The notes under the pieces: generated by a model
Seen by the model: the letters and a program-made list of their open reading frames with translations, nothing else
The model's database searches: none
Told to the model about the DNA's origin: nothing
From: Micromussa lordhowensis
Taxonomy: Eukaryota; Cnidaria; Anthozoa; Scleractinia; Lobophylliidae
Direction: 5' to 3'
NCBI GenBank assembly: GCA_964020085.1
Contig: OZ026603.1
Coordinates: forward strand, 25,462,889-25,526,888
Length of the DNA stretch: 64,000 nt
Shown here: in pieces, positions 1,150-64,000 of the stretch
Position numbering within the stretch: the stretch's first letter is position 1
Layout: the number at the start of each line of letters is the position of its first letter
Made by a program: the position numbers and the translations under genes

Positions 1150-1831
1150 ATCACGCGGTGAAGTCCAAAGTCGTGTCCGTTGCACTTACAAGAAACCTTC
1201 AAGCCCAGGACAACAGTCAGTTGAACACGGAGGACACCTGGAGAGCTCTGCTGCAGAAGTCACAATACATGTAACACTGTCGCGAACTGATGTGGGTCTG
1301 GACACTTATGAAACCATTGGAGACAAAGAAGGGCCCACTTATGCTAATCTTAAACAGACCAGCAGGAAGTCTCAGACCCATAAAGAAGAGGCTTTAACCC
1401 ACGAGGATGGAACAGCAAAGCAAAAGCAATCTAAAGATGGATATTGTATGCCATTGGAGAGCTCACCACTGGATGCTACAAACAACAAGCTTGAGGCGCA
1501 TGGAGTGGTGGATGTTAAAACTGCGGGAAAACAGGAAAATAGAGATCACGTTTACGCGGTTGTTCAAAAAGATAACAAAGGTAGAGACTCTGCGGCGAGT
1601 TTCCATGCCACAGCACCTTGCTCGAAACGTTTGGAGCCTGCGATTCGCCCGAATTCAGCTGCTGAACCTGTGAATCGCACGTCCTGCGCGGATCCGGCAA
1701 ATCACTCAGATGTGAGATGCTTTTCCGTGAAGCCTGTCAATCACTCGCAAGACGCACTCTCAGGAGACGGGAAAAAAGATCAATTGTATGCCGTTGTCGA
1801 CAAGGGAAACAAGAAAACGAGACCACCTCAG
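1150..1831 (+). CDS. Receptor A penultimate tail exon
   Basis: The open frame runs from an upstream TGA at 1136, and the acceptor ag at 1148-1149 restores a clean start. About 227 residues, hydrophilic, Lys/Glu/Ser rich, with no signal peptide or TM segment. It contains TYETI and TYANL near residues 50-60, then VYAVV and LYAVV, each followed by a Lys/Asp-rich stretch. Between the last two lies a degenerate repeat built on PVNRT, PANHS and PVNHS. It is much longer than the equivalent exons of B (166 nt) and C (151 nt). The VYAVV/LYAVV segments match EYAVV in B. Confidence 0.7.
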
Positions 1832-4068
1832 GTTTGTTTGTTAGGTTTGTGTTTGTTTATCCGGTTTTTTTCATTTCTTAGAATCAAGAACATCAACATC
1901 ATCAACCGAGGTTTCCCAGACAAATATGCATAGTGTCAAGGAGCTCCCCTGTATAAACTACGATTTGTGGATACGTTGCGTGATGGCGCCAGTTTCCGCA
2001 GGCTCGCAAGTTTTACAAAAAGCTAATTTGTAAAAGTCTATTTTTTTAAGTACATAGCTGGAAGCACAAAGATAAGCAATACTTTTGCAATTGCGTGCTC
2101 GTTTTGCGTAAATAAACTCCGTGCGACTGATTCACGTATTTCCCCTGATGAATATAGTAGACAGTATTTATTATCTTCAGTTCAAAGCATTTACTAAGTA
2201 TTTACATTGCCGGTCCTTGGTTCGGGCTCACTCTTATGGAGCTTTCCTTCAGAGTACCAATGTTCCACCGAATATACACTGAGCCATCTATCGCAACTGG
2301 AACTAATCAACACACGCGATCAAAATACAGGGAGGCGATTCAAAGTCGTCCTCGTGAACATCTAAAATAAACAATGACATTTCCCTCAGATTTTGATAAA
2401 AGCTACCGTCGAAGGTAAGCATCAAAATCCAACGCTGAGAGCACGAAATAGCGAAGCCTACGGCGACCTATTGGAAAAAAAGATCAAGAGCAAAGACGAA
2501 CTTACATGCCGGCCTGCTCACATGTTCGTCACATGTCTTATCACATGTCTCAGTAACGATACCAGTTTACTGTCCGTGACTTGCCCCTGCAAAAAGCAAG
2601 CGGGTGGGCCATACAGGATAACCGTGTATAGGGGGAACCAACTTTGAAAGTCACAGGGAAAAGTTAGGCTTGCGCCCCGGGGGGGGGGGGGTATACTTAA
2701 CACAGTTTTTAATACGGGGAGGCTCCGCCCCGAGGTCCAACCCCTTACCCTTTTATATACCATTTTGGCAGAAAAGGTACCCCTTTTATATACCTTAATT
2801 GAGAAAGGGTACCCCTTTCACATACCTTCTTTAGAACACTGCACCCCCTTTCTAAACCGTTGTAATCAAGCCAATGAACAATATTACGGGAGAATATCAA
2901 GTGTTACTAGAAGAAATGTTTACTCGGAAATGTTTACACGTATAGTACGGAGCTAAATGATGTCCCGTGAACAGTGGGCCCTTCATGTACGATAATGGAC
3001 GACGCTTGCTAGCAAATCGTTAGACTTGCACCTTCATTGGACTTAATGATGTCCTTCGGCAGACTTCCTTTAGACAGCAGTTATGGAACGCTGGTCGGTT
3101 GGCTCCCTCTCAGACTGAGTCACCACGCGAACTGAAATTCAGAGGAGTGTAACCTGGGCTATACTTAGCACCGACTGACAAGGGGAGGGAGGGGTGCGGG
3201 GGGTACCGATGAATAATGAAAACAAAAAAACTTGAAGAATAAACGAAGCATGCAGCAAGAAGTCCTCTACACTTTACACTAGGTAAGACTTACAAGCTGC
3301 TGCCATAAGGAAAGCAAAAGGTTTAATAAATAAATAAATAGATTAGAAAGAGAAATCAATAAACACCGCTAGATGTCATTAACACTGTTTTCATAAATCC
3401 AGACATATATTTCAACGGATTAATAAAATTGAACAATTCCTGATTTAACGAAAGGAGGGTGAAATTAGTCTTCCTGGCCTCAAAAGGCATACGGGAGAGT
3501 TATCCCCTTTTATTTGCGCTACGATAAGCCTTGTGGAAAGCTAGCTCTAGGACAGAATTGTATCAAGATTATCAGCGACAAGTCAAATTCTGTAGCCACG
3601 TTTTTGCGAATCCAGACAGATATATACCTCAACTTTGTGAAATCCCTACCCTTTTATATACCTGAATTCTGAAAAAGGTACCCCTTTCGGGCGGAGCCTC
3701 CCCGTATAGGCCATTATAGGGAGTAACCCCCCCCCCCCCGGGGGGGCTTGAATTACACTACGTGAACGCAATAAGTATTAAAGGACATCCCTCTAGCTGC
3801 CTTTGTTGTTGTTGTTTTTACTTCTGATATATTTTTTATTGCTGATCTTTTCTTTCCAATAATGAACACTTTGCTTCATACACAGAAGCCTTCCCCTTAC
3901 CGTGGACTTGTCTACGCTGACCTAAACCACTCCACAACAAGCAATACGGGACCAGTTAAAAGAGAGTTTCCGACGGTCTACGCCGACATCGATTACGTCA
4001 AGACAGACGCAAGATCAAAATTACCAGAGGAAAATTTGGATCAGACAACGGAGTGTGATGATCCGTAG
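1150..4068 (+). CDS. Receptor A, cytoplasmic tail with tyrosine motifs (3' part of gene)
   Basis: Two exons encode the intracellular tail of a membrane receptor: 1150-1831 (enters in phase 2 after a tttag acceptor, leaves in phase 0 at a GT donor) and 3886-4068 (phase 0, ends TAG). The same exon/phase pattern (2-0, then 0-stop) is seen in receptors B and C downstream, which is the main reason to call it a paralogue. Tyrosine motifs in order are TYETI, TYANL, VYAVV, LYAVV, LVYADL and TVYADI. LVYADL fits the ITIM consensus and TVYADI the ITSM consensus, both known to recruit SH2 proteins such as SHP-type phosphatases once phosphorylated. No convincing TM or ectodomain exon was found between 1 and 1149, so the 5' part is probably off the window. 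The intron 1832-3885 contains a G-tract-ended MITE. Function is inferred from motifs only. Confidence 0.7.
2678..3748. mobile_element. MITE-like element with poly-G/poly-C ends, copy 1
   Basis: About 1.07 kb in the last intron of receptor A. The left end is a run of G (2679-2691), the right end a run of C then G (3727-3747). Inside them are inverted arms: ACGGGGAGGCTCCGCCC at about 2714 matches the complement of GGGCGGAGCCTCCCCGT at 3690, followed on both sides by copies of AAAGGGGTACC and CCCTTTTATATACC. A second copy lies at 31756-32147. No transposase was seen. The target duplication is unclear. Confidence 0.6.
3886..4068 (+). CDS. Receptor A terminal exon with ITIM and ITSM
   Basis: Acceptor acacag at 3880-3885; phase 0 frame of 60 residues to TAG at 4066-4068. 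Contains LVYADL (ITIM fit) and TVYADI (ITSM fit) 22 residues apart, then DYVKT and an acidic C terminus. The terminal exon of B has the same order, LVYAQL then TVYADV, with similar spacing, supporting common descent. Confidence 0.72.
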   Translation, partial: KPSPYRGLVYADLNHSTTSNTGPVKREFPTVYADIDYVKTDARSKLPEENLDQTTECDDP

Positions 4069-5821: not shown

Positions 5822-5900
5822 ATGGCGATCAAGACGACGAATTTAGCGAAGCTGCCAGTTTGGATTATAGTGGCGATTCAAATCTTTCATTTCGGAGCGG
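5822..5900 (+). CDS. Receptor B exon 1, signal peptide
   Basis: ATG at 5822 opens a 79-nt exon ending in phase 1 at GGTAAGTG. The peptide has basic and polar residues then a hydrophobic core (LPVWIIVAIQIFHFGAG), a good signal-peptide shape. It has the same length (79 nt) and exit phase as the signal exons of C and D at 27929 and 44566, which supports it despite the 14.3-kb distance to the CTLD exon. A longer ORF in another frame overlaps it (5701-5904) but shows no family features. Confidence 0.6.
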
Positions 5901-8900: not shown

Positions 8901-9066
8901 AAACCGTGTCTCTATAACTCGATAGAAACGCAGAACTAGCACGAGCTGTTGACATAATGACGGCGCGAACAAAGAGACTTTGCAGTAAACAAGTTGTTTT
9001 TCTTTTTCTTCGTCGCGGTATTTTCTAAAAGAAATAGAAAACATGTTCTCCGTGTTCCTGCGGCTC

Positions 9067-9097
<31 letters not shown>

Positions 9098-9930: not shown

Positions 9931-9966
<36 letters not shown>

Positions 9967-18091: not shown

Positions 18092-18171
<80 letters not shown>

Positions 18172-21100
18172 CGACGTTCCAGTCAGTGATACCATGATAA
18201 AAGACACGTTGCTTCCCCAGTTTGTTCTAACACGTAGCAGATGGAGGTCATTTTTGTTTCGCGTGTTGTTATTATAGTCGCTTCTTTAAAGTGGTTATCA
18301 TGCGTTCACCGACGTCTGAGAAGATGATCAAAGCTCTAGTGCCAATCTTCCCAAGGTATGGATATCCATTCAGCCTCAAGTCGGACAATGCAACTCAGTT
18401 TGTATCACAGGAATTTGAAAGTTTTCTTGCTAGTCATGGAGTCCAACACCACTGAAACATCACCACCACTCTGGCCTTAAGCTAACGGAGAAGTTGAACG
18501 GCAGAACAGATCTTTGCTAATCCCTCAAGATAGCAGAAGCAGAGGGAAGGAAGTGGAAGGATGAGTTGGACAAATTCCTGTTTGCGTATAGGACAATCCC
18601 TCAATGCTGCACAGGAGTCAGGACCCCAGCATTTATGATATTTGGCAAGGGACTGAGGACATGAGATACGTCACAACAAAACTGTTTTGGACAAAGGAAT
18701 TAGAGATCGTAACTGGAGTCAGAAGCTCACCGGCAAATTGTAAGCTGACAGACAACGCCGTGCTGTGGACAACCCAGTGGCTCCTGGAGATAAAAGAACA
18801 CCAAATTAAATGAAAAGTTAGCTCCCAACTTTGAGCTTAAGCTGTGTATTGTTCAGACTAAGGGAGGGCAAGGAGTAACCCTGAAATCGCCTGATGGCGT
18901 AGTGGAAAGCTAGAAGAAACAATTCACTTCCAAGCCGTACAGAGCACCAAAAGAGCCTGAAAACTCCAAAGCAGTTGAAACCCCAACAGATTCTGTAGTA
19001 TCATCTTCTGTGGCGATACAGCAGTAACAACGAAGCCAAAGAGCAGACCATCCATCCCGAACTACACGGATGACAGCTCAGTTTTAAGACTATGTTCTGG
19101 ATAAGTTAAAGGCCTTGTTTAGGATACGTGAACAGTTTCGAAGGACATTACGCAGTTAAGGTTATTTGTTTACCGAGAGAGACAACGGTTAGAGTTTCGA
19201 ATATTGCTTCATTATTTGTTATTGCAAGAAAGCTTTTCACAAAGGATGGGAATGTAGTGTTTACATGTAGTGTAAGGAGAGGCGGGGTGGCCTCATAGTT
19301 AGTGTGCTCGACTCCGGAGCGAGCGCTCCGAGCCCTGGCCTGGGACATTGCGTTGTGTTCTTAGGCAAGACACTTTACTCTCACAGTGCCTCTCTCCACC
19401 CAGGTGTATAAATGGGTACCGGCGAATTTAATGCTGGGGGTATCCTGCGATGGACTGACATCCCATCCACGGGGGAGTAGAAATATTCCTAGTCGCTTCA
19501 TGCTAGGGAAACCGAGATAAGCTCCGGCCTGATGTGCCACTTGGTTCGTATGCAGACTTTACCTTACATGCAGTGTAAGAGATATTTCGTGACGTTTATA
19601 GGAACCATGGTTGTGTAACATGGCGTGCTGGCTGCAAGCGTGATTGAAGTTGTTGTTGTTCTCCATGTTTATCTTCGTTATTAAATGGCCGTCACTACAC
19701 CGCGTACCTGGAAAGGGCAAAACATCAGCCTAGTTTGCCATAACGTTAGCGTAGTGTTTAATCATTATATATATATATTATTCTATGTATAAATTGTGCA
19801 GATAATGTTTGCATGGCAGATGCTAGATTTCTTGCTGGGACATGTGACCATATCAACCCCTCGATTCCCAAGGACACGCGACCAAATCCAGAAAAGTTGC
19901 CCTAAAAAAATATTGAAAGAACTAATTTTAACTCCATATGTAGCGGCATTACGCAAGGGGATAATCGAAAAATGCGACACTTGAATACTGTGTGCTCTGA
20001 ATAATTCAACTCACAATTTCGAAAGGAGAGTTCCTCTTGCTACACCTTTGAAAATGACACAGTCAATGTCATGGTTGAAAGCAATGGAATCTTGTAGATT
20101 TAACTTTGAGCTGATTACAGATTACCTCAGTATCCTAGTGACACTCTTTTGTCCGTTGATCCATCTTCCAATCAAGTATTTATGTTTGTTTGTTTTCCTT
20201 TTTCTAGGAATTTCAGATGGAGATAAACGTTGCTCTTGCTACGGTTTTATCAATAACATATCATATCCGTGGAAACTAGCAAAGGACACTTGTGAATTAA
20301 ACAATAATCATCTAGTGGTCATGGAAACCGAGCGAGAATGGAAATTTATAAATAAGGAAATTCAAACTCTAGAAAGTGGAAGATTTAATGAATGGCTCAT
20401 TGGTTTGTATAAAAACGCAACTACTGGAAACTGGACTTGGATCAATGGAAAAACACTAACTATAGACAAATGGCAAGTTTCTAAGCCTGGAGACGATGAT
20501 CTGTACGCTCTGATAGCCAAGGAATGGCCTCAGGGACATAAGGGATCGTTTAACAGCATCAAGGAAACCACTTATAGAGGATGGATTTGTGAAAAAGAAA
20601 CAGGTATAAATTCATTGTGAACAGTTATTTATTTCACCTCATAATGAAGCCCCATCTAGTTCATTGCTGCTCTTTTCCCCTTTTACCCCCTTCTCGCCCA
20701 ACCCTCCCCAACCCCCCCGCCCCTTTTCTACCCGCCTCCGGTCATTCAACTGGACACACCGCGACACACTAAGTGGATATACATGTACACAGACTGGACA
20801 GGCACCTTCTACCACACGAACACTGACGAGCCACGAACACTGCCGACTCTGGAATACCGTCGTTTATTGACGAAGAAACGTCGTCAACTCGCGTAAGGAG
20901 AAACTAATCAATATCGGTCAAGCTGAGATGCAGAACTCTAGATTTCTAAAGGAAGCACTGTTAAAATGTAATTACAATGTGGTGTCTATAAATATAACTA
21001 GTTGATTTTCTGTACCCCGACAGATACCTGCAATGGAGTCTGTTTAGAGCATAATCCTGTGCCAACAAGCTCAACGCCTGGAACTACCGCCTCCACCACA

Positions 21101-24100
21101 CAATGGCAGCCAAACGTTTCAACTGTATATGATACAACTACTACATCAGGTTAGATCTTACAGGCCACTAACCAAATACTGCATGTACTCTGTTCGATCG
21201 CAATAATTTTTCTTCTTTCACTTGATCGCCGCCCTTCAGTGACCTAAATCTTAAGAGCCTCCCTATCCTTGACACACTGAGTGGAAACTGAAAGTGGCAA
21301 GGCAAGGGAAAATGGTTTGAAGACAATCCAGTTCAAAGACGAAGTAGTAGTAAGGTTTTGCAACGTTTCGTAGTGATCCTTTCATGAGTATATGTAGTTT
21401 CATTGTTACTTTACTTAGTAAGCTGATTGGACTACTCAGCCCCGAGCCCTACGATTCGCGGGCCTATCAGTCTTAGAACACCATTACGATTTAAGTGGAC
21501 TGGGTTATAACTTTTGTTTTTATTTTCCTCTGTTAACAGTTTCCACCTTGACCTCCTCAGCCCCAGGGGGTGATGGGAAAAAGGGTGACAATGATAACTC
21601 TTCCACTATAGTGATAGTAGCCGTGTCCCTAGCAGCCGTCTTCTTTGTCGTGTTGATCGTCCTTGTTATAGTCCTGTTACTAAGGCGACGGAAACACCGT
21701 GGCCATGGAAAAGGTGAGTGTCTTAGCTTGCGCGTGTCACATTCGTTTGAATCCCCTGGCTGTTCTTCTCACATGATATTGTTTTGCACCGTATTATGTC
21801 GTCAAAGCAACACTGAAATCCCAGATCATTTGCACAGAAAATAATTTATAAATCACACACCATTCAAGTCGGTACCACTATAACGTCTTCACGGGATCAA
21901 TAAACTGCTGTCGTTTGACTTGTATTTTTCGTTTTCCTCAGTTTTTGCAACTTTTGCATAACACGCTTAAAAGCCAGCTTCAAGCAGGATGGTAGCAAGT
22001 CCTGGCATAAGAATTGATAATTAAGAAACTGCAAGGAGACAATAGCATAATTATAGCAACCCAGGTATCGGTAAAGAAATCGGCAAAGTTATACTCTTCT
22101 TCCAATAATCAATCAACCAAGTGCTACTGTAATGATGATCTAACATAGAAGCCAGAAATTACTGGAAAAGTAAAATTGAAAGTTGTTGATTTTGTTTGCT
22201 ACCCTAAAGCCGGTGCAATGATTTAAGTCGTCTTTCTTGCTTTCAGATAGCGAAACTCTACCGAAAAAATCGCGGTAAGTATATGATTCCTGGCGCTCTT
22301 GCAGCTATAACAATTTCTTCAATCAATATCTTGATAGAATGCCAGCCATAAAGACCGTGAGGATGAATTGAAGAAGTCATCTCAGTTAAAGAGAATTTGG
22401 CTTGATAATCGATTTCTCTCAATTTGTACAATAGAAGATTGATGAAGAGACGAGGAAAGGATTGGTTATGTGAATAACAGATAATGTGTTTACCTTTGCA
22501 TAGCCTGCTTCGCAAACGAGGTCAACTTGAACGTCATTTGAGCGCTAACCTGGCAGGTCACAATGGCGACTATATGTTTTATTATTTTCTTTTTTAAGGC
22601 ATCAATCAGCCCAGTTAGGTCAAAACCAGTATGAGCCCGTTGATCGTGTAGAAGTCGCAAAGCTGCTTGGGACACCAGACAGCAACAAGGCTGAGAAAAA
22701 GATTGAGCATGTGTCACCTTCAGCAAACTGTGAATATGCTGTGGTCAACAAGAAAGACAAAAAGGTGAGTTGTGAGCTGAGCATGCTGAAAACTTTCGTC
22801 AGGACTTTGGGATGTGGCCCTGGATAATTCCTTTTTGTCCTTCTTTTAATTTTTCGTCAGTCATTCCGCCCGTCTGTCCGTCAAACCGTCCTTCCGTCAG
22901 TCAATCAGTCAGTCAGCCAGTCATTAAGTTAGTCAGTCAGTCAATAAGTCGGTCAGTCACTCAGTTAATCAGTCAAACAGTTAATTAGTCAGTTATTCAT
23001 TTATTCATTCATTCATTCATGCAGTTGGTCAGTCAGTCAGTTAGTCAGTAGTTAATCAGTCATTCATTCAGTCAGTTAATCGGTCACTCAGTCAGTCAGT
23101 TACTCCGCAGTTAGTCGATTAGTCCGTAAGTCAGTCAGTCAATTAGTCCATCAGTCAGTCAGTCAGCTCATTCATTCAATCAGTTACTAAGTCAGTCAGT
23201 CAGTCAGTCAGTCAGACAGTCAGTTAATTAGTAAGTCAGTAAGTCACTCAGTCAGTCAATCAGTCAGTCAGTCACTCAGTCACTCAGTTACTCAGTCAGT
23301 CACTCAGTCAGTCTATTAGTCAATCAGTCAGTCAATCCGTCAGTCAATCTGTCAATCAGTCAGTCATTCATTCAGTCAGTTAGTCAGTCCTCAGTCAGTC
23401 AGTCAATTAGTCAATCAGTCAGTCAGTCATTCATTCAGTCAGTCAGTCAGTCAGTCAGTCAATCTTCAGCTACTGGCAAAGATTGAAGCATTCCACTAAC
23501 AACGTGTTGTTACGAGAAGCATTTCAATATGCAACAAAAAATACACCTTTCTTCAACATTCAACAGAATGAAGAAATCAATAAAAAGTGTAAAGTAAAAG
23601 AACCAGTAATCCAGCAACACATCAAAAATACGCGATTAGTTATAAAGAAAACCCTCAGGGATCAATACTTACAGAACTGGCTTGAAACCCAGAATAGGTC
23701 ACCAACAAATTTAAGAGAAAAATTTACACAAAAGGAAATTAAAAATAATTATCAATTTGAAAACTACTTGACATTAATTACAAAGCCAGCACACAGAATT
23801 AGCCTGACAACGCTTAGATTAGCATGTCATGTATTACGAATACAAACTGGTAAATACGAAAATAGATAGCATTAATCCCAGTGGAAGAACGCCCATGTTA
23901 AGTATACCAAGAAGATTGCATAGAACATGAACAGTATTTCTTAATGTATTGTCGGAGGTATACCACATTAAGACGTGAGCTGCACTCACATATTTCAAAC
24001 GTTGACGCTGATTACAACAGTTTAAGTGATAGCGAGAAGACAAGGTATTTACTTAAAGCGGAAAACTCGATTACATCTAAAATAATAGGAAAATATATCC

Positions 24101-27928: not shown

Positions 27929-28007
27929 ATGGATATCTCCAATTCTGGTAGCTTGGTTTTTATCCTGATTCTCAAGCTTGTTTTTCTTCAAGGTACACTT
28001 ATAACGG
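27929..28007 (+). CDS. Receptor C exon 1, signal peptide
   Basis: ATG at 27929, 79 nt, exit phase 1 at GGTAAGTC. Hydrophobic core LVFILILKLVFLQGTLITG. Very similar to receptor D exon 1, including the shared codons for LQGTL and TG at the donor. Confidence 0.78.
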
Positions 28008-42896: not shown

Positions 42897-43040
42897 ATGT
42901 GTACTAAAGGCATCCGCGGTCGAATGTCGATTGATACCCCCGATCGAAGCATATCAGTCGATCGACAATCGGCCGACCAACGAGTATCGATCGAGATGTA
43001 TCGATTGGCACTCGACTGCGTGTGCCTTTAGTACACATGA
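42897..43040. mobile_element. Hairpin MITE in the 3' UTR of receptor C
   Basis: The inverted ends ATGTGTACTAAAGGCA and TGCCTTTAGTACACAT enclose about 110 bp unusually rich in CGATCGA and ATCGATC motifs. It starts about 30 bp after the stop codon. Confidence 0.72.
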
Positions 43041-44565: not shown

Positions 44566-44644
44566 ATGGACGGCTCTTATTCAGGCAGCTTATTTTTGGT
44601 CTGGATTCTTCAGTTTGTTTGTCTTCAAGGTACACTTCTAACGG
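44566..44644 (+). CDS. Receptor D exon 1, signal peptide
   Basis: ATG at 44566, 79 nt, exit phase 1 at GGTGAGTG. Peptide core LFLVWILQFVCLQGTLLTG aligns with LVFILILKLVFLQGTLITG of receptor C over its whole length. Confidence 0.75.
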
Positions 44645-50600: not shown

Positions 50601-52982
50601 ACACGAGTGTGACAGTGATGTTGCAACCTTGATAGAATGTACAGTAAAATTGCCAATCGATACTTAATCAATGCATACACGTAGTTTATATATTCCTGGG
50701 CTATACGTTAACGCTAACCCAGGATTAAGAGATAACTGCATTATCAATTTTTCTTGTTTAAAAATGTTTTTCACTTCTTACATGTATGTAGTTTGAGATT
50801 GCTCAATGTAAACAGAAAACCTCACCAAAAAAACGGCTGTCCTCGTGTACCGGTTCACAAGAGCCAATACAGTACAAAACACCAAACAATACACAACAGC
50901 TAACTAATGACTCTTAAACAAAGAAAGAACAATGGTTATTCCCTTGTGAACCGGTGCAACAGGACTGAACCAAAAAAGTACAAAACTGAAATCAAAATTC
51001 TTGCTAATCCTGGGCTAGCTTAATCAGGCTTTGAACAACCCGACCCTGGTGTATTAAGACCAATCAGAGTTTTGGTGTTTAAACTAAATAAAACTTCAAT
51101 TGCTTGACAATTGAATTGATCTTGTTTGGGTTCATCAAACTCACCTAAACATCGATAGCCAATCAAACACAATCAAATGTTCAGTAATGAAATCTTTATG
51201 GAATCGAACATAAACAACTCTTGTCAGTCCATTTTCCACATTGATTGAATTAATTCTGATAACTATTGTATGATGGGGTGCTGTACGTATTGCTAAATAC
51301 ACTGAATCTGCTTATTCTTGAGAGACCTTGAGAGTATGAGAAATTTTCTTTTGATCAGTCTTGGCTCGAGGCAAAAGGGGCTAACACTGACTTGCTTTGA
51401 TGGTTAATTCATCTACTTGAATTGAAATTGTAACAAGACAAAGAAAAATCAATGCATTCTCTTCCTCTCTCTTGTTGTTTTTTTTCGCAGGCACACTAGC
51501 TTTCAGTGGAGGTATGACTGTTATTACATTATTGTGATTAATATACATGTAATTATGCAACTGCATACGTTTCATCTATGCCAGCTCTCTTGGATGGTCT
51601 GGGAGTCTACATGTATCTGTACAGGCCAGATCTCCTGGTCTCCAATATGGGTTAACTACCAAGTCTCTTGGTGGATTTGAAAAAGTAGCACTTTAAGTTA
51701 ATTTTCACAATTATTTTGCCTGATTTTTGGGCTTATTGTACTTTGTGAAATGGTACTTTGTGAAACAAAATGAAAGAAAATGAAATCTGCTCTTTGTAAA
51801 ATATAGATCTGTACGTTGCAAAATGAAATATTTTAATTAATGCATAATGAAAATCAGTTCTGTACTTTGCAAAATGAAAATCTGTAGTCTTAACAAAATG
51901 AAAAAGGTGAACTTTCCAAATGAAAATCTGTACTTTGTGAAATGAAGAATGTACATTTATTTGCGAATTGAAAAATCTATACTTTCCTGAAAAGTTTAAA
52001 AGGATAAGTTTTGAGTCACCTGTAGGGCCTCATTCTCCTCACCTGAAGCAAACTTGTTACTTTGTGGCTGAATTCTATCAACAACAGCTACATGCTACAT
52101 TAACTCTTAGCATCATAGAAAATTAAGCTTGTACATGTACATGTATGTACTTGAGGTGTTACTGAGGTTACAGTCCTTTCATTTTGATGTTTGTACAACT
52201 GTCAGGTTGTCCCTCAGTGGGAGTTGGCATTGCAAAAGCCAGAATTCCTAACAAGGATATCACTGCATCATCAGAGCTGAATTCTGATTCATCTGCTATT
52301 CATGCAAGATTTGGAAACACAAAAGCATGGATTCCCAGTTCAAATGATAAACATCCATGGATTCAAGTAAATCTACAGTATGAAAGAAATCTCACTGGTA
52401 TTGTTACACAAGGCTTCAATATGGTTCTTTTGTTAAGTCGTATTATGTGAGTTATGGTGAGGATGGAATAAACTGGATGAACTATACTGTTCAAGGAAAA
52501 ATAAAGGTATTTATTAGGATCAATATTTAACATTCAGAGATTTTATTTATATCAATGTAGACTATCAGAGTGTTCATTTTATATCCCATTTAATTTTACA
52601 TAATTAAAATTTTGTGTATATTGCACATTCGTTGTACATAGTATTTGTTACAGTACATGACTAGCTTTATGTACATGTAGATGTCTTCTAGACACACAAT
52701 TTACAAATTAACATGTAATATGTACATTAATTAAGTAATAAATATATAAAAAGACCAACCAACCAAACCAGGTGAGCTTTCACACAAAAACATGACATCT
52801 TCACACATGAAAATACAGTGTAACATGTTACATGTATCTTCACATGTGAAATATATAAACAATAGTCTCCATTTGGCGCGAAAATATGCTAGGATATTTG
52901 TCCGCGGACATTATCTGTTCCGAGAAGCGAACAGTTTTCCGAGAGCGCAGCTCGAGGAAAAATGTGAGCTTCGAGGAACAGA

Positions 52983-53018
<36 letters not shown>

Positions 53019-56000: not shown

Positions 56001-59000
56001 GAATAATTTTCCCCGCGCCGTTGAATTTAACTTCTTTGTGGTTGACCATTAGCTTTCCGTTTTTCAGTTCGATTTCAAATGCGGGAAGCCCAAAAATGAA
56101 GTAAAGAGGCTCTGACATGGATCGGTTTTATTTACCAAGACATTTTATTTAACAAAGTTGAATGGAGCGATCTGACTTTATTATGGCGACGATTAGAGAC
56201 GTGTGCTGATGGCTTTTTGAGATAACAGTTTTGTTGTTCGTATTGAAATTTTGTTCTTTCTTTTAGCCGTTGGAGCAGACTTACCTTTGAGTTACTCAAT
56301 GGCCATCAATTGTCTAAAAAAATTCACTTTTCAAATTTGGCTTTGTAGAAGTAGGACTTTCTTTTAGTTTTCTTCACTTTTCCTCGAGCAACGCCGGCGG
56401 CGGCAGACAGACTGGACGCGGGAAGACTTCCCGCCAAGATCGTTAACCAGGCACTGTGATTGGATGTCTTGAGTCACGTGGGGTAAAGTACACGCCATCC
56501 TTCGACAGGAGTTGGCTTCAGAGTTCTTTGCGTTACGTGAGAAACTTGTTTATTTAAGATGTTTTTGAAAGTACAAAGGCCTTGGTGACGATGAAATGAG
56601 CTGCTTTGTTCAAGTAAAGGAAATACGGTTTAACTAACGCAAATGTGAGCAATCTCACGAGGATTCGTAAACACCTTGTACGACTGTTTTTTTCAAGACC
56701 TGCAATGACTGAGGTCTGTGTACACGGAATAATTTTTAGCAAAGTGCAAAACTTGAGCAGTGGATGAAGATAAACCTTTTCATGACCTTCGCTTTGAGAT
56801 GAGGTTGAAGTCAAGCCAAACGAATTTTCTTCGCTTCTTTGCGGCTGACAGATGTAGTAGTTAATTATTCTTGTTTGCTCGAGGTAAAGGACGCGAGTCG
56901 ACCCGACGATAAAGGTTAGTTCTCCTCAATTTCTAGTTGTAGCAAAAACGATTTTCTTCTCATTAAAGGTAGCGAAATGTGAACTGAAGGTGAATGTGTC
57001 TAAAACTGTTAAGCTTTTTTGAACTGTACGTGACGCCGGATTCTCTTATCTGTCAATAAATCTGCTTGTGTTTGACATGTAGTCAGGAGTGGTATATTTC
57101 AGTGTGTTTGTTTTGTCTGCTAGAAACTACTTCACTCAACGAATTTATGATAAGCTTACCTGGATCTGAGTGTTAACATTTTAAAATATCTTACAGTTTT
57201 CTCGATGATTTTGATATCTCGGCGAATCTCGCCGAGATTCTCAACAAGTTTTTGAGCGCCGAGACTTTGAGATCTCGCCGAGATCTTACTTGAAATCTTG
57301 CTAAGATTCTCGGCGAGTTTTTGAGATCTCGGCGAGTTTTTGGCCGCCGAGATTCTGAGATCTCGCCAAGATCTCGGCGAGAATCTCGACGAGATTTTGA
57401 GATCTCGCCGAGATGTAGGCGAGATTCTCGGCGAGTTTTTGGCCGCCGAGATTTTGAGATCTCGCCGCGATCTCGGCGAGAATCTCGACGAGATTTTGAG
57501 GTCTCGGCGAGAATCTCGGCGAGTTTTTGGCCGGCGAGATTTTGAGATCTCGACGAGATCTCGGCGAGATCTCGGCAATCTCGCCGGCCAAAAACTCGCC
57601 GAGATTCTCGCCGAGATCTCGGCGAGATCTCGTCGAGATCTCGGTCAAAATTTTGCAGGGGAAATATCCCGAAAAATGCTCAAAAAAAATTTCCGGAAAT
57701 TCTCAATTTTTCCCTAAAAATCCCTCCAAAAATTATTGTGAGATTGTAAAATCATCAAAATAAGGTAGCCCATAGGGTAGCCCATAGGCTAGCCCATGGG
57801 CCCGGGCCCAGGTTTTGTCCACACCCCCCTGGGAACGAGTGCGACTGTGGTTGTTCACTCGAGCGTGAAGAAGAATGTTGGATTGTGTGGCAGGCATATC
57901 ACACTCTGCACCACAACACACACATCAAGTATCAACATTGCATTGAAAGACACGAATGTCGCATGTTAAACGAACAAATTTGGAAGCAAAATATGGATAT
58001 TGATTGAGAATACAGGAAACAAGAATGTTGGATTGCATTGCGAGCATATCGCAATTTACACCGTATAAACACATTGAACATTGAATAAGAATGTCGCATG
58101 TTCGACCAACGTTGCATTAGAAATATGGACATTGAATTGTGAATGGGCAATGTTGAATTGTAGAAGTTGAATATTGGAGTGTAAAATCGAGCGATAATTC
58201 AAAGCAACAATGTTGCAAACAAAAGTTTGAATTTTGGCGGGGATATAATGCCATAGTGAAAAGATCAGTCCATTGCTATGGTTACATGTACATATAAATA
58301 ATAATAAATGGCGCCTTTTGTAGCGAAAGTGAAATGGTTTGGGATTTCATCGGTGTTTATAATAATAATAAAAAAACACTACATGGCCACTTGGACGTAC
58401 AAAATTTCTCTTCTTGTGTTGAAAAATAATTATTTGTTCACTGCGCCCACTTGTGAAATATTCTTCAAAACTGAAAGAAAATATCTGCATGGCCATGTGA
58501 TATCCTCTATGTATGTACATACAGGTACACATATGTACAGTGTAGATGACAGATCCAGAGGGGCTTCATAATGATTATTATACTTATTCTTAAAAAGAAT
58601 GTACACTGTATAATCTATATAGGTTTATTAATAAAAGTAACTTACATATGAGATGCTGTACCTGTACACACAATAGGTCAGTCATTAATAAAGCAATGCA
58701 TGGGCACAAAAATTATTTAACTCTCTCTCAAAGTTTCCTGGGAAGGAAAAAATAAAATCTTTGTTCAAATATGATGTCATGTGATGCGAAGTAGTACTTC
58801 CCAAGTACACAATGTACGTACAGCATACAGTCATTAGACCAAAATTAAGTTCTGTTCATCTTGAATTCTTCAGAGAGGTTATTCTGAGAGAGTTCTGAGA
58901 GGGTCGTTATCACAGCTATGTAAGCTAGAGCTTGTACATGTTCCAGAGGTTTTATTAGGGTCAGGGTTATTAATTAGAATTATATAATTGTATTTTTTTG

Positions 59001-62000
59001 TTAAGATATTGGATGGTGATGCTGCTGGTAAGAGTCACAAAACAGAGGTTTTCAATCCTACAGTCCTTGCACAGTATATAAGGTTGCATCCTATGAACTG
59101 CTCTAACCTGTGTGCACTTAGATTGGAACTTTATGGCTGCAATGTCACTACTGGTAAGAGGTTCAAGGTTCATTTATTTTACACTATTTACATAAATAAG
59201 AAACGAAATGTACATGCATGAACAGTTAACAATGTATCTACTGTACTAACTGTAGGTGTTTCTTGTTATATATACAGGGCTTCTGAGATTATGCGTTTTT
59301 TTCAGCAAGTTATGCATTATTTTTTGGCGAAATGTGCACCCAAAATCCCTAATTATGCGAACTGCGCATTATTATTTTCTTAGCAAAAAATTGAACGGGG
59401 TGGCTATTTGCAGTGCTCCAAGCTGCGACTGTTTTGATCGCCATGGCAAGTGAAAAAATAATTTGGCGACTAAATTTTACGAGCAGGTCACCAATTTGGC
59501 TGATTGTTTATCAACAGGGTTTTTTCCAATATAATCATTAAGCCAAACAAATTTAATCACAATTTTTGTATGCTTGTCTTTCTTACCTGTATTTTTTTTT
59601 CTTAACGGGATGTTTTTTACTTGTTGTAATGATTTCACATTAAATATTTACATGTATATGACAACAAACAGCCCCAACAGCCAAGATAAGTTTCCAATGT
59701 GTTGTACCGGCATGTATTTGGTAAGATTTCTAGCAAATTTTGCGGTATTTTTATGAATTTTGCGAGATTTTGCGGATTTACTTGAAATTTGCAGCTCCAC
59801 GAATGCGCGGAATTTTAGAAGCCCTCACATGCACAATAATATTAATTAATGTAACAACTGGTTGAGTTGAATTATTCTTTTGTCACTTAACCACTGGAGC
59901 AGCACCAGTTGTCATTTTGAAGGGGAATTTTGGATTTTTTAACCTTCAGTGCTGTACATGTGGATCATGGGCTTCCTTACTGTTTTAATTTACTTTTGTT
60001 ATAGATTATGTACTATGCTTGCCCAATGGGCAAAGGAAATTTCTTGTTTTCTTTTTTAATTTTGCACAAGGTGTGATTCTGTCTTTCAGTAAAAGAAACA
60101 CTTTCAACACAAACTTGTTCACGAAGGACGTTTGTTTCATATTCCATGAAACACACTACAGTTTGCATTCAAAATAAACAACACTTTGGTCATATGTTGT
60201 TGAAATATACCACCAGTTCTGAGTGGCCCAAGCAAAGAAAAGTATTGCTTTGCCTTCGGTTTTTTTTTTGTCGGTAAGCATGCAGACCCAAACTCCCACT
60301 CACGGCCAATTGTCGTCACTGGATGATGTCATCATCAGCCAATTACAGGCCATTTCTCAGCTCTTTTCGTCATATTCCTCCCTCAGGAGGGTTTTGTCAA
60401 GTTAGCAAATTAACTGTTTAGACAAAAAAATATGGCGGCCAAATGGAGAAAATGTTTATCTGGCCCAACTTGAGCCAAAATCCTTTGGCGATGGGCATCA
60501 CGACATTTGCAAGGATAAAGCATCTAATTTTGGGACCAGCTTCTGGCTAGCCTGAATTTCAGCCGTCTCCTCCTCTCGCTAAGTCTCGGGAGAGAGACGT
60601 CTGAAAGCACTGGGCGATAATGTCCTCCAGTGACGTCACGAGTCAAAAGTGGTAATTTATGAAATTTCACACGCGACCTTCGCTAGACAAAACCGTTAAG
60701 TTTGGTGGATGTCAATCATCTCCGCCTCCTTATCGACCTAATGCAAAATTTACAAAAATAGTCTTAAACTTTGCAGCGGTCCACTCGTAAAAATTATCAT
60801 TTTACTTTCAGTATGCCCAGTTAGCTCACTAAATACACTGGAATTAAATATTCCTTGAAGTTTGTAACTTGACTCGTGCGGCTTGGGTTTCTCAACGGCC
60901 ACTCTGGGCCATTCACATGCATGAATGACCCCGAGAGCAAGCAAATCTACACGTGAACTAAATTATCTATGTACATATTCATGGGGCTACGGACTAAACA
61001 AAACTTCTAATAAACCTGATAATTTTATGGTAATAGGTCGTAATAGGTTTATAGGTTAAAGTATATGTTCAGTCCGTAGCCCCAAGAAAATACTTGCAGA
61101 ATAATTTGTTTGCTCACGTGCAGATTTGCTTGCTCTCGGGGTCATTCATGCATGCGAATGGCCGTTGAAAAACCCGACAAATGTCTTCATTTAAGGATTT
61201 GAATGAGTGCTTTGCCAATGTATTTAGTGTGCTAGCCGTACATATTGAAAGTACGGTAAAATGATAATATTTTATGAGTGAACTGCTGCAAGGTTTCAGG
61301 CTTTTTTTTTTTTTCAGGTAAATTTTGCATATGACTATGCTTCGTTTGGAAAATGGCTGTACCGCTTTGAAAGCTCAATCACCACTGACGAGTGGAGCCA
61401 TACATATTAAGGGTTTTCCATATCCCGTAGGCAAGTTTACGAATACATCGCTTCCGCTAAGAATTTTCTGGTTGCGGATTGAGGTTTTGAACCCCAAAGG
61501 TCGAGCATACACCAGAAACGGCTTTAACTCTTGTGGCGTTAGCTCGCGATTTTCTTCGAACGCACGACGTTTGGCAATAAAATTATTCAAATTATCCGCG
61601 GAGGGCGAATAAATTAAACACGGCAACCAATCAGAAGCACTACCAGGTTTTCTGGTAGTGACGTCACTGGACGACATTATCGCCCAGCGCCTTCAGACGT
61701 CTCTCTCCCGAGACTTAGCGAGAGGAGGAGACGGCTGAAATTCAGGCTAGCTGCTGGCTAGTAAGGCTAAAATTATCCAGAGTTTAAAGCTGTATTTTCG
61801 TTTTGCGTACAAAACAGAACATTCAGTTGTAATCTGGAATATTTGTTTCTGTTCACTTTCAAAGGGAATATTAAATGCACTAAAAAGGTATTACGTCTGG
61901 CCATGGAATACGCTGACGGTGAAAAATGTAAGATCGTGTATAGTTCGCCAGAAGCAATGGTGGAATTTTCTGGGGAAAAAAGTTAAAACTAAGCCTTAGC

Positions 62001-64000
62001 ACTTGTCAAAGACCCATATGTAAATTTCTATTGAAAGGTCAAGGTATTTTTTCATTAGACGTAAACAAAATTCTCCGATTACAAGTCGCGCTTATCTCAC
62101 GCTATGAATAGAATGTAATCAGATACTCCTTTTTTCGTATATTTGCTGAAGGGCAGGAGAGTCACGTTTCGCAGACAGTGTAAGTAACTGCGTTTTTTTT
62201 TTAAAGTGCGGTTTTCAACCAATCGCATCCTTTAAATCTGAGCCATTTTAAGACATAAACAAGTAGTCTGTAGAAGAGTAAAAATATTGTTTACTGTTTT
62301 CAAATATCTCTTTTCGTTCCAGAGATATTCAAGTTTTTAAAATATGCAAATTAGCCAAGTGATGATGTCATACACTCAGCCGCATTTTGATCAATTATGA
62401 GAAACAAGTATATCTCAGTCAATTTATATTAATGTTTGAATTTTTACAGTAAGATTCTAATAGAGGTGCTCCACAATTTGAGCTTAACAATTTTGTTACC
62501 ATGACAACATACTAGGTTCCAGACTTCCACATTATGAAAGGCTTTTCTGACCACTTTTAGGGTTTTATATTGATACATGTACTTGCCAATGGCGCCTCAT
62601 CTGCATAATCCAGCAAGCATATAAATACATTAGGTTGAGTTCATAGCCTTGTTTATTGTTTTCCAAACTTAAAATCACTAAAATATTGATATCAGGCTAG
62701 AGGGGACTTGAAAGGAGTGGGTTGCCATGGGAACGGAAATTGTTATAGCTGTAGATGTGTTGCATTTAGAACTATTAGTCTACTTAGTTTCAATGGTTTC
62801 TGCTGCAAATTGACCGAGATTGCGCTATTTATATACGTCATGTAATATTTGGTTGAGTGTATGACGTCATCAGTAAGCTCATTTGCATATTTTACTCATT
62901 TTCAAACTTAAATATCTCCTGAACCAATGCAGATATTTGTAAATGGTACATGGCGTTTTTAATCTTTCGTAGAATTCTATGCATTTAACAAAAAAAATCA
63001 AGGGGTAAAAATCTGATCATTGTAGCACTTTAAGGAATGAAAACTAGTGCCAGTCTCCAAACGGCCAAAAATGTCTTGCAAGTTTTTTAGGCTTTTTCAT
63101 AGCCAAATAATCTTAAAACGCTCTGTGGATGCAGAATACATGTATTATCAAGATAAAGCGTTAAGTGACAATGTGGTTTATTTTGATGAAATTGAGTGAC
63201 TTCATGAATAATGTGATTTTTCTTAACTTGTGGGATCGAATGTGATTTTAGGTCAATTGTGCAAAATTGCACCATCACATAATATCAAAAGGGCTGACCC
63301 GTACTCTTCATCGTTTTTTTTTGTTAGGCCTGCCTGGTCAACCACCTGCACCCACTGCAATTTCAGTTTCAACACATGTTATTGACATAACATGGACAGC
63401 ACCCAGTGATACAGGTGCTGGAATCACAGGGTACAATGTGCAGTGGCAAGTTGTTGGGGAAAAAGTGAAAAACCAAAAAGTGATTACAGGAAGCAGGACA
63501 GCAAGACTTGACGTAACGCCATACACATCATATGACATCCAGGTCAGAGCTTACAATGAGAAGGGAGATGGGCCTTTTTCACGGCCACTACGAGTGACGT
63601 CTCAAGAATCAGGTTAGTGAAGCCAGCTGATCAGAAATATTGCATAATCAAATGGTCATGTACATGTACATGTATAAATAAATTTGTATATTGACTGAGA
63701 AGGAGAGTAGGTAATCGTGTTAGGGCCATTGTATGCATTTTGAAAGTGCTGGAAACTGTTACATATATACAGTGTATACAATGTACATGTATGCTTACAA
63801 GTTCTTATCTGTAATTTCCTGATCTGATTCAGGAGTTTTAACGCTGTTTGTACATTGTAGCACTAGGCAACAATAGTTTACCGTGGATAAAACCCAGTTG
63901 CCAGTAGTTTGACTGTTTTTCACGTACACAATTGTTTGTTTTACCATAGTCCCATCTGCTGCTCCTGGTAGCTTCACAGTAACTTCGACTTCCTCTCTTT
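44566..64000 (+). CDS. Receptor D (partial): signal peptide, Thr/Ser stalk, F5/8C domain, FN3 domains
   Basis: Exons: 44566-44644, 46425-46601, 52206-52506, 59006-59153, 63328-63612 and 63950 to the window end. All ectodomain exon groups are phase 1-1. The F5/8 type C (discoidin) domain is split over two exons; its first exon carries an apparent 1-nt deletion near 52423. No CTLD exon was found between the signal exon and the stalk, although the signal exon is nearly the same as that of receptor C. TM and tail lie beyond the window, so an ITIM tail is only expected by analogy. Linking the signal exon to the downstream exons is inferred from phase and order; the frameshift leaves open that D is a pseudogene. 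Confidence 0.62.
46425..46601 (+). CDS. Receptor D Thr/Ser-rich stalk exon
   Basis: Phase 1-1 exon, 59 codons, acceptor ttttgcag and donor AGTAAGTG. Mostly Thr, Ser, Val and Ala (e.g. VVSTPAVVTSTQAALAVTT), a mucin-like O-glycosylation segment. The stalk exon of receptor B is similar in kind but sits after its CTLD. Confidence 0.65.
46646..47062. repeat. Tandem duplication of about 205 bp
   Basis: Two direct copies, each running from GGGAGGATTTGACAAA or its variant through CCTGGCGTTTAGTTTT, TACTTCAGGTCTAGAAAAG and CTGATCCTAAAGAT to an (AAAC)n tail (CAAACAAACAAACA). Copies begin near 46653 and 46868. Intronic. Confidence 0.8.
47400..47628. mobile_element. PIF/Harbinger-type MITE
   Basis: A 229-bp near-perfect inverted repeat with ends GGCCCTCCACAGACTAGGGA and TCCCTAGTCTGTGGAGGGCC, flanked on both sides by TAA (47397-47399, 47629-47631). 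A TWA trinucleotide duplication with a GG-starting end is typical of Harbinger MITEs. Arms carry repeated AGTTGTCGACAACT-type palindromes. High arm identity suggests a recent insertion. Confidence 0.82.
48242..49475. mobile_element. Mutator-like element carrying an OTU-domain gene fragment
   Basis: 1,234 bp with inverted ends GAGTGTAGGTTTTTGTCGAG, each followed by a GGTCGAG/GGGTCGAG tandem array of about 80-100 bp. A perfect 9-bp duplication CTTCAAGGA flanks it (48233-48241 and 49476-49484), the length expected for Mutator-type insertion. The only gene-like content is a two-exon OTU-type ORF on the + strand (48507-48858). No transposase is present, so it is non-autonomous. Confidence 0.85.
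48507..48858 (+). CDS. Truncated OTU-type cysteine protease ORF inside the Mutator-like element
   Basis: ATG at 48507; exon 48507-48662 ends at GATGTGAGT in phase 0 and exon 48739-48858 follows acag in phase 0, ending TAA; 91 residues. NPPGDGDCFYASAAKALG is the start of the OTU fold with the catalytic Asp-x-Asp-Cys region. The second exon (EFSAKIHNYSNYNIAAG) is hydrophilic and has no catalytic His, so the protease core is incomplete. OTU domains are known passengers or components of some animal Mutator-like (Phantom-type) transposons. Whether it is expressed is unknown. Confidence 0.6.
51690..51995. repeat. Irregular tandem array of TACTTTGTGAAATGAAAATC units
   Basis: About twelve diverged units of 20-25 bp with a TACTTTG...AAATGAAA core; intronic, no ORF. 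Confidence 0.7.
52206..52506 (+). CDS. Receptor D F5/8 type C domain, first exon, frameshifted
   Basis: Starts CPSVGVGIAKARIPNKDI (phase 1 entry after ctgtcag) with ITASSE, HARFG, WIPSSNDKHPWIQVNL and LTGIVTQGF, a classic discoidin pattern. At about 52420-52426 the frame must shift by one base (a missing nucleotide) to continue as SFVKSYYVSYGEDGINW and YTVQGKIK, which reaches the donor AAGGTATT. Exon length is 301 nt, one short of the 302 needed for the phase 1 to 0 transition. Confidence 0.78.
52860..53033. mobile_element. Hairpin MITE
   Basis: The left arm ATAGTCTCCATTTGG, GCGAAAATATGCTAGGATAT and GGACATTATCTGTTCC is matched by complementary GGAACAGATAATGTCC, ATATCCGAGCATATTTTCGC and AGAGACTAT on the right. 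174 bp. ORFs on both strands are palindrome shadows. Confidence 0.75.
53778..55341. repeat. Inner 1.5-kb inverted repeat of the 5-kb element
   Basis: Arms share TGTCTAGGCCTAGAACAG, CCACGTTATTCCTATGGC, AACTTTAGGACGCGCTG-type and CACTGACTCACATTTTGCC blocks as complements. The left arm lacks about 80 bp present in the right arm (about 55017-55100). The loop (54247-54792) contains an ORF starting MDSSSDGNSPVSYASVV (54679) that runs into the right arm; it is not recognised and may be chance. Confidence 0.72.
55355..55945. repeat. CTCGGCGAGAT array, left
   Basis: About 590 bp of units such as GAGATCTCGCCGAGATT and CGGCGAGATCTCGTCAT; larger 80-95-bp units containing CATGATGTTT are also visible. Strongly self-complementary around AGATCT. 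All ORFs rich in RSRRDL are artefacts. Confidence 0.9.
57210..57650. repeat. CTCGGCGAGAT array, right
   Basis: Same 11-bp theme as the left array but in a different arrangement, with TTTTTGGCCGCCGAGATT as a recurring spacer. Lies just inside the right arm of the 5-kb element. Confidence 0.9.
59006..59153 (+). CDS. Receptor D F5/8 type C domain, second exon
   Basis: Phase 0 entry after gttaag, phase 1 exit at GGTAAGAG. ILDGDAAGKSHKTEVFNP, AQYIRLHPMNC and LCALRLELYGCN complete the discoidin fold; the final Cys normally pairs with the Cys at the domain start (CPS in the first exon). Confidence 0.85.
59275..59826. mobile_element. Degenerate hAT-like MITE
   Basis: Ends CAGGGCTTCTGAGATTATGCG and, as complement of the right side, GAGGGCTTCTAAAATTCCGCG. 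Imperfect inverted ends of about 20 bp, no ORF, no preserved 8-bp duplication. Confidence 0.5.
60547..61750. mobile_element. TIR element with a helicase-motif ORF
   Basis: Inverted arms of about 115 bp: CTAGCCTGAATTTCAGCCGT and, near the inner end, CGATAATGTCCTCCAGTGAC against its complement with one or two changes. Flanks CTTCTGG and CTGCTGG (6 of 7) may be a target duplication. Two further inverted pairs are nested inside (60870-60960 with 61118-61200; 60980-61000 with 61065-61086). Minus-strand ORF 61677-61375 has a helicase-type motif (see CDS entry). Confidence 0.7.
61375..61677 (-). pseudogene. RecQ-like helicase N-terminal fragment
   Basis: Open frame of 100 codons ending in or near DVFVNLPTGYGKPLICMAPL. 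PTGYGK matches helicase motif I (Walker A) as found in RecQ-type helicases, where a phrase like D-V-F-V-x-L-P-T-G-x-G-K-S is usual; here the K is followed by P instead of S. Only the first motif is present and the frame stops soon after, so it is a fragment, probably captured from a larger helicase-bearing transposon of the same family. Confidence 0.5.
62200..63036. mobile_element. MITE-like element with inverted subterminal blocks
   Basis: Blocks at 62300-62392 (GAGATATTCAAGTTT, AAATATGCAAATTAGC, GATGATGTCATACACTCA) are matched as complements at 62853-62935 (TGAGTGTATGACGTCATC, CTCATTTGCATATTTT, AAACTTAAATATCTCC). Outer ends share AAAGTGC and GCACTTT. Interior AT-rich, no ORF. Boundaries approximate. 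Confidence 0.5.
63328..63612 (+). CDS. Receptor D first fibronectin III domain
   Basis: Phase 1-1 exon, 95 codons, acceptor tttgttag and donor GGTTAGTG. PGQPPAPTAI start, ITWTAPSDTG (strand B Trp), GYNVQWQV, RLDVTPYTSYDIQVRAYNE and PLRVTSQES: textbook FN3. Confidence 0.9.
63950..64000 (+). CDS. Receptor D second FN3 domain, 5' end, cut by window
   Basis: After ttaccatag the phase 1 frame reads VPSAAPGSFTVTSTSSL, the A strand of another FN3 domain. It runs off the window. Confidence 0.7.

Follow-up and report, generated by a model that had tools for sequence, protein, structure and literature searches.

The window analyzed here is the whole stretch of 64,000 nucleotides at C9:25462889-25526888 of the host assembly (580.8 Mb in 1383 contigs; C9 coordinates are those of OZ026603.1). 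Four stony-coral receptor genes, A to D, lie head to tail on one strand of it. Signal exons were located at 5822 (B), 27929 (C) and 44566 (D) by a signal scan, and as B, C and D start there, the genes are 1.7-2.2 kb apart. The exons are given below with the evidence for each; P numbers denote homologues.

1164..1831, + strand: gene A cytoplasmic tail exon, YETI-x7-YANL (ITAM form), YCMP and YAVV twice, ends in phase 0 (open frame; 79% to P0035)
3886..4068, + strand: gene A last exon, LVYADL and TVYADI, stop at 4066 (93% to P0035, 50% to P0036 and P0037)
5822..5900, + strand: gene B signal-peptide exon, ends in phase 1 (signal scan; 86% to P0001 residues 8-29)
20208..20603, + strand: gene B CTLD exon, type b, without EPN/QPD sugar motif (Pfam Lectin_C E 1.1e-10; nearest solved sequences mincle, NKR-P1A and dectin-1)
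21024..21149, + strand: gene B Ser/Thr-rich stalk exon (aligned in homologues)
21540..21713, + strand: gene B transmembrane exon, phase 1-1 (homologue alignment)
22247..22274, + strand: gene B mini exon of 28 nt, phase 1-2 (its residues occur in P0001 and P0002)
22599..22764, + strand: gene B tail exon, YEPV and YAVV, phase 2-0 (tyrosine kept 17/18 and 17/18)
25527..25724, + strand: gene B last exon, LVYAQL, TVYADV, YANV and stop (tyrosine kept 18/18 at all three; single genome copy)
27929..28007, + strand: gene C signal-peptide exon, paralogous to that of D (signal scan; DNA alignment with the 44566 region)
32205..32633, + strand: gene C CTLD exon, type c, EPN and YND (Pfam E 1.2e-15; AF2 mean pLDDT 76.9; mincle and langerin folds)
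34283..34582, + strand: gene C FN3 exon 1 (77% to P0030 residues 675-773)
35099..35202, + strand: gene C FN3 exon 2a (81% to P0030 774-809)
35626..35827, + strand: gene C FN3 exon 2b (69% to P0030 808-874)
36370..36475, + strand: gene C FN3 exon 3a, PTPRU-type FN3 (61% to P0030 876-910; Pfam Fn3_PTPRU in C model)
38443..38701, + strand: gene C FN3 exon 3b (59% to P0030 912-998)
38866..38911, + strand: gene C short exon that completes the last FN3, ends in phase 1 (47% to P0030 999-1017, E 0.45 alone; same exon in D, E and M1)
39214..39353, + strand: gene C transmembrane exon, acceptor homologous to D and E out of phase (comparison with D and E)
41750..41900, + strand: gene C tail exon, CGYALL as first half of the ITAM-form pair, phase 2-0 (44% to P0017; 4 copies aligned)
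42701..42865, + strand: gene C last exon, SCYASL (second half of the ITAM-form pair), SDYENI and stop (51% to P0017; 5 copies, all C9)
44566..44644, + strand: gene D signal-peptide exon (signal scan; further copies outside the window)
52206..52507, + strand: gene D F5/8C exon 1, 2-nt indel near 52418-52422 (two frames match P0030, at 64% and 80%; alignment with gene E shows the 2-nt gap)
59000..59155, + strand: gene D F5/8C exon 2 (65% to P0030 173-224)
63329..63612, + strand: gene D first FN3 exon (69% to P0030 224-288)
63950..64000, + strand: gene D start of second FN3 exon (gene continues past the window end)

Gene B is complete in the window, where seven exons encode a protein of 388 residues with signal peptide, CTLD, Ser/Thr stalk, transmembrane segment (TM) and tail. 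The search returned 29 homologues, every named match being from a stony coral, and the best named one (Oculina patagonica) has 67% identity over 99%. Whole-protein matches were obtained in Oculina, Pocillopora, Stylophora, Acropora, Porites and Montipora, with 94-100% of the searched part covered at 36-67% identity; the other matches are partial, with coverage down to 14%. The contigs of 1.4-3.1 kb that carry P0001, P0003, P0032 and P0035 are probably spliced transcripts, because such small contigs hold exons which are kilobases apart here.

For the alignment of the B tail, the 18 of 29 homologues having the whole tail were used. P0017, which has a C-type tail, was left out along with ten having no complete B tail as listed (P0009, P0010, P0016, P0018, P0019, P0021 and P0026-P0029; P0016 and P0018 are both from Desmophyllum). 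The rows are not independent, several being paralogues or isoforms of one species, and in them the tail tyrosines are kept at YEPV in 17/18, YAVV in 17/18, LVYAQL in 18/18, SYEP in 15/18, TVYADV in 18/18 and YANV in 18/18, while those of the ectodomain are kept in 17, 3, 3, 14, 1 and 4 of 18. When the window is included, TxYADV is present in 19/19 rows, (L/V)xYxx(L/I) in 18/19 and YxN at the last tyrosine in 19/19.

Gene C consists of a signal exon, a CTLD, three FN3 domains in split exons, a TM and two tail exons, and these last two exons are matched by the Oculina protein P0017. The join of CTLD to FN3 and the frame of the TM belong to a predicted model. The TM acceptor of C is out of phase compared with D and E, and the same is seen in M1, the upstream inverted copy. 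Gene D continues beyond the window with FN3s, a TM and then, at a distance of about 10.5 kb, a C-type tail. Genes C and D possibly show damage, and the acceptor of C and the indel of D may each mark a pseudogene, be allelic or stem from an error of assembly. An open stretch at 39455-39655 (KSGYVTV...KKRRFAVVESK), which to some degree resembles a YAVV tail exon in decay, is shared by C and M1 and absent from D and E; it has weak splice sites and was left out as a C exon.

The initial annotation had counted A among four adjacent genes; its tail exons are indeed in the window, and the rest of gene A is not. The ectodomain side of A falls partly within N runs, which are gaps or stretches withheld and conceal part of the gene; one of them directly precedes the window (the long runs are L014 1-2500 and 5001-10000, L015 5801-10000 and L031 4182-9181). 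The first tail exon more likely starts at 1164 than at 1150, judging from P0035, and the A tail shows 79% to P0035 and 36% to P0036 and P0037. Six tyrosines are kept in 7/7 copies of tail A, and the strict ITAM form (YETI-x7-YANL) is found in 2/7, namely the copy of the window and an identical one, and is absent from P0035, P0036 and P0037. An ordered series of CTLD, stalk, TM and A tail was found on the minus strand, and a type c CTLD at C9:25269371 precedes a stalk and a TM exon of the A type; from these exon orders the two traced A-type genes are CTLD receptors. The start of P0035 resembles MAM at E 0.2 only, below the cut-off, and a MAM ectodomain is not claimed for the A type. An A-type tail exon at C9:24591738-24592406, 871 kb off, encodes protein 100% identical to that of window 1163-1831 (other intact copies 89-95%), which may stem from a recent duplication, from gene conversion or from a sequence duplicated in the assembly.

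The array to which these genes belong is real, conserved and expanding, is about 1.05 Mb long on C9, and has related tyrosine tails of two forms. In searches of the host genome the tail exons were confined to C9:24.59-25.64 Mb, as seven A-type copies plus a fragment, one B-type and five C/D-type. The intact A tail exons are 89-100% identical and, together with the fragment, which has two stops, lie in C9:24.59-25.46 Mb; the frame is open in 7/8 copies. The last exon of B has one copy in the host genome, the other match among those listed being at E 6 on C5, and the five copies of the last exon of C are all on C9 at 25.42-25.64 Mb. At least 17 CTLD exons were located on C9 between 24.56 and 25.50 Mb (150 of 260 candidates scored). 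A tblastn search over 264 kb added two type c exons and three of type b, of which one is broken, one is partial and one is that of window B, giving at least 22 in the array, and also located genes E and F downstream of the window and inverted genes upstream. The same gene kinds lie mostly on the minus strand at C9:25312889-25462888 (L014-L028), an inverted part of the array upstream of the window. CTLD matches are also many on other contigs (C1, C6, C7, C10 and others), and searches with the tail exon of A and the last exons of B and C gave no good match on those contigs. The last intron is in phase 0 in A, B and C and also in D and E outside the window, and a TM exon ending in phase 1 is common to B, C, D and E. 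The same-strand array, matching exon phases and differing ectodomains (CTLD; CTLD plus FN3; F5/8C plus FN3) described in the initial annotation are borne out, the array is larger than was reported there, and paralogues sought on both sides were found up- and downstream on C9.

The Pfam families in the models are Lectin_C, fn3 and F5_F8_type_C, and no Ig family was found in the Pfam search of the models. The type c CTLD is nearest to Clec4b1 and selectins by sequence and to mincle and langerin by fold; the AF2 model of the type b CTLD had a mean pLDDT of 56.9 and was not used. Of 18 CTLDs of the array, 13 carry EPx as the sugar motif, 4 carry QPx and 1 carries EAS, and EPN itself occurs in 2/18. 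In vertebrate lectins the change of E to Q at this motif shifts the preference from mannose to galactose.

On the evidence of the sequences, ectodomains and tails have been shuffled between genes. The B tail occurs with a type b CTLD in 15/18 aligned homologues (P0001, having c plus b, is counted) and with a c-like CTLD in P0023-P0025 (Montipora where named), the A tail occurs with a c-type CTLD in P0036 and P0037 of Pocillopora, and P0032 combines CTLDs c and b with a TM resembling that of C. The Oculina genes ACROYT_G020126 and G020127 (P0002 and P0017) are identical at 176/216 residues in the ectodomain, 13/28 in the TM and 28/128 in the tail; the tail of G020127 is C-type, and the ITAM form is present only in this member of the pair. 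Similar ectodomains are thus carried there on tails of opposite motif form. The pair may represent the anatomy of paired receptors, being one pair taken from annotation in which G020127 may be an annotation fusion. ACROYT_G020143, with F5/8C and FN3, is on a contig of the same length (33.96 Mb) as that of these two, which suggests that it is linked to G020126/G020127 in Oculina.

The six motifs named in the initial annotation were all found at the places given there, in exons flanked by AG/GT: LVYADL at 3907 and TVYADI at 3973 in A, LVYAQL at 25542 and TVYADV at 25620 in B, and SCYASL at 42713 and SDYENI at 42845 in C. LVYADL, LVYAQL, SCYASL and SDYENI fit the ITIM pattern (S/I/V/L)xYxx(I/V/L), and an ITSM, TxYxx(V/I), stands beside the ITIM in the tails of A (TVYADI) and B (TVYADV) at a spacing of 22 and 26 residues, which resembles that of vertebrate pairs. 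Counting of motifs was rejected as evidence for ITIMs. In open stretches of at least 25 aa the window has 108 matches to the bare pattern on the plus strand and 79 on the minus strand, and shuffling of the B tail residues gave one ITIM in 897/5000 trials and an ITSM in 221/5000. Matches to the bare pattern carry no information; the argument is based on homology, on conservation and on the gene models, and B in particular, with motif counts near chance, is supported by conservation and not by count. Loss of the tyrosine motifs between species had been named as a ground for refutation; those of LVYAQL, TVYADV and YANV are retained in 18/18.

The ITAM form (YxxI/L-x6-12-YxxI/L) was scanned over 26 tails or tail pieces from genes of the window, their copies and homologues, window A being counted twice, and was looked for in D, E and M1 as well. 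It is absent from window B and from 11/11 of the B-type homologues scanned (of the 18 aligned), and present in 6/6 C/D-type tails (window C, D, E, M1, and P0017 and P0030 of Oculina), where chance accounts for it in 12-38 of 5000 shuffles each. The C/D-type pair is YALL-x12-YASL, and an ITIM form overlaps it; the tail motif scan found no ITSM in C/D-type tails. C, D, E and M1 each carry two ITIMs, SCYASL or SCYTSL and SDYENI, reached in 2-27 of 5000 shuffles. The inhibitory motif form which the initial annotation had proposed for the tails fits the B type, having ITIM and ITSM without the ITAM form, and does not extend to all tails, as the C/D type carries the ITAM-form pair. The presence of this pair in the C/D type and its absence from the B type suggests paired or mixed signalling.

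Tails B and C/D share a plan of YE(P/S)V (not in C), YA(V/L/M) or YTM, and then a second YAxL or YTxL. The pairwise similarity score was reached by 0 of 1000 shuffles for A-B, B-P0017, B-P0030 and C-P0017, by 4 for P0017-P0030, by 7 for C-P0030 and, weakly, by 25 for A-C; it was not significant for B-C (105/1000) and A-P0030 (717/1000). In hhalign profile comparison, with P0030 standing for D, E values were 2.3e-5 for A-B (probability 76), 1.1e-5 for B-C (81.5) and 0.00095 for B-D (22), and C-D (0.044), A-C (0.14) and A-D (0.42) were not significant. Gene B is the hub of the tail relationships, as shuffle and profile comparisons tie it to A and to C/D. Direct pairwise similarity of C to B is not used for this; that tie comes through P0017, the B-C profile match and the phases.

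Selection was estimated on recent copies. For the D type, in which pairs were pooled against one reference copy, dN/dS is 0.34 in ectodomain exons, 0.33 in the TM and 0.93 in the C/D tail (42.5 N and 12.5 S changes), so this tail is only weakly constrained; FN3b and F5/8C pairs were left out, as their gaps are not a multiple of three. A hypervariable D-type ectodomain is not supported in view of the 0.34 and the conserved FN3s. Tail A (7 copies) gives 0.43. For CTLDs dN/dS is 0.82 in five K-type and 0.59 in nine G-type copies, a truncated copy near 25.407 Mb being left out. From FPW to the end, the part containing the sugar motif, it is 0.96 (K) and 1.04 (G), against 0.62 and 0.43 for the rest, and in site permutations 6/5000 (K type) and 291/5000 (G type) placed dN of the loop as far above that of the framework. 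Positive selection on the loops is not claimed, as 0.96 and 1.04 also fit relaxed constraint.

The explanation we favour, at a probability of roughly 55%, is that the array of about 1.05 Mb encodes single-pass type I receptors which signal via immunoreceptor-type tyrosine tails of two forms, in the manner of paired receptors. It builds on the observed anatomy, paralogy, motif conservation, shuffling and two motif forms, and from these we infer phosphorylation, SH2 docking, the sign of the signal and the ligands. In each gene a signal exon would be followed by ectodomain exons in phase 1 that can be exchanged for one another (F5/8C with FN3 repeats, or a CTLD of one of two types), then by a TM exon and finally by a tail of one ancestral plan. 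The type c CTLDs would bind a glycan, and the type b CTLD, FN3 and F5/8C a surface protein, upon which a kinase of the Src type would phosphorylate the tail. The B-type tail, with ITIM and ITSM 26 residues apart, would then dock a tandem-SH2 phosphatase and dampen the response, and the ITAM-form pair of the C/D type would dock a tandem-SH2 kinase or adaptor for activation, or both outputs may arise. Duplication and exon swapping would give new pairings of ligand and tail. Paired signalling is favoured because one ectodomain sits on both tails in Oculina; the kinase, the SH2 partners and any self/non-self role are putative.

All tail motifs fit the YxxPhi form of sorting signals as well, so the proteins could instead be endocytic or phagocytic lectin receptors whose tyrosines serve AP-2 in the uptake of particles, microbes or algal symbionts. 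The type c CTLDs, which resemble mincle and langerin, the latter an endocytic receptor, also agree with this. We regard it as unlikely, since conservation goes beyond YxxPhi (position -2 is T in 19/19 rows for TxYADV and L or V in 18/19 for LVYAQL) and each tail has several motifs at fixed distances (22 for A, 26 for B). It is less probable still that the whole array is inhibitory, with C/D-type tails acting through SCYASL and SDYENI and the ITAM form being incidental. Two fitting ITIMs in C, D, E and M1, rare in shuffles (2-27 of 5000), speak for this, but YxxL-x11-12-YxxL is kept in 6/6 C/D-type tails, two Oculina proteins included.

Two further readings give the tails no immune-type threshold or little present function at all. 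The YxN sites, at the last tyrosine of B in 19/19 rows and in SDYENI of C, D, E and M1, follow the pYxN rule of Grb2, and with the FN3 like that of R2B phosphatases they would suit recruitment of Grb2-like adaptors in growth or adhesion; this leaves the conserved ITIM/ITSM pair unexplained, and we consider it the least probable account. Only slightly better, and still very unlikely, is that the array is a by-product of birth and death, a lineage-specific lectin expansion with many members decaying. The indel of D, the acceptor of C, the A-tail fragment with two stops and the dN/dS of 0.93 in tail C/D are in its favour, and the available text of PMC10236652 describes amplification of coral lectin and immune-receptor families by tandem duplication. 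Against it, B is full length across coral genera, and tail A has a dN/dS of 0.43 and open frames in 7/8 copies.

Paired receptors are described in the accessible part of PMC3533184 as clustered receptors having similar ectodomains and opposite tails. The preferred reading of the array, as paired-type receptors, likens it to those of vertebrates (NK gene complex lectins, KIR/LILR) in clustering and in similar ectodomains on opposite tails, and to the NK gene complex lectins also in having CTLDs with and without the sugar motif. Activating members of vertebrate pairs usually borrow ITAM adaptors, whereas the coral C/D type has the ITAM form in the receptor tail itself. The NK-complex lectins are type II in the available text of PMC2756403 and PMC2704933, but the coral receptors are type I, with N-terminal signal exons and C-terminal tails. 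In Hydractinia, as far as the accessible text of PMC12065747 goes, ITIM and ITAM motifs occur on candidate allorecognition genes and associated signalling molecules are encoded in the genome, and the available part of PMC11999971 gives the Alr genes as IgSF with 41 members. The likeness to Alr is that of a cnidarian gene complex with ITIM and ITAM motifs, drawn from motifs and clustering, and Alr ectodomains are IgSF while those of the coral array are CTLD, FN3 and F5/8C. The Botryllus fester co-receptors (FcoR) have ITIM or hemITAM tails within a histocompatibility locus (PMC12065747, accessible text), but belong to a chordate and have Ig and sushi ectodomains, and the coral swap is between genes. 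The Clec4 group (DCAR2/Clec4b1, BDCA-2, mincle), langerin and selectins are the nearest solved sequences and folds to the type c CTLD, yet differ in topology and tails, and EPN is found in only 2/18 array CTLDs. In C and P0030 alike the last FN3 gives a match to Pfam Fn3_PTPRU, as in R2B receptor tyrosine phosphatases, and Pfam found no phosphatase (PTP) domain in the C model or P0030. Fibronectin and MAM are among the partner domains of cnidarian CTLDs in the available text of PMC8260672.

In searches of an open-access library, outside which most subscription papers lie, no description of such a coral array and no paper joining ITIM and anthozoan was found. The array is of the clustered-immunoreceptor kind in a new form, with lectin, FN3 and discoidin modules on two tail forms, and is a candidate coral recognition locus. 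Corals reject non-kin and select algal symbionts, and we know of no established coral receptor locus for either. The array supplies genes, a map position, conserved tail motifs, two opposite tail forms and candidate ligand loops. If the proposal is true, it would be a further case in which clusters of varied ectodomains with ITIM and ITAM tails were assembled independently, and coral self/non-self and symbiont tolerance would become directly testable. More tentatively, as a possibility we hold doubtful, the locus may be an anthozoan paired-receptor recognition complex in which the same ectodomain on ITIM/ITSM tails or tails with their own ITAM reads self or algal-symbiont glycans via diversifying sugar-binding loops. 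Such a complex would be renewed by duplication, inversion and exon swapping, and would form a coral counterpart of Alr and the NK complex on unrelated ectodomains and a candidate locus of allorecognition or symbiont tolerance.

The introns of the window also contain repeated sequences. Open frames like gag-pol pieces are present at 11085-12374 inside the first intron of B, where they probably derive from a retroelement of the LTR type. Simple repeats and minisatellites of some length occupy 22860-24540 (B intron) and 36600-38300 (C intron), and in an intron of D the same open-frame sequence occurs at 53180-53707 and 57750-58346 on opposite strands, about 4.5 kb apart, as an inverted repeat.
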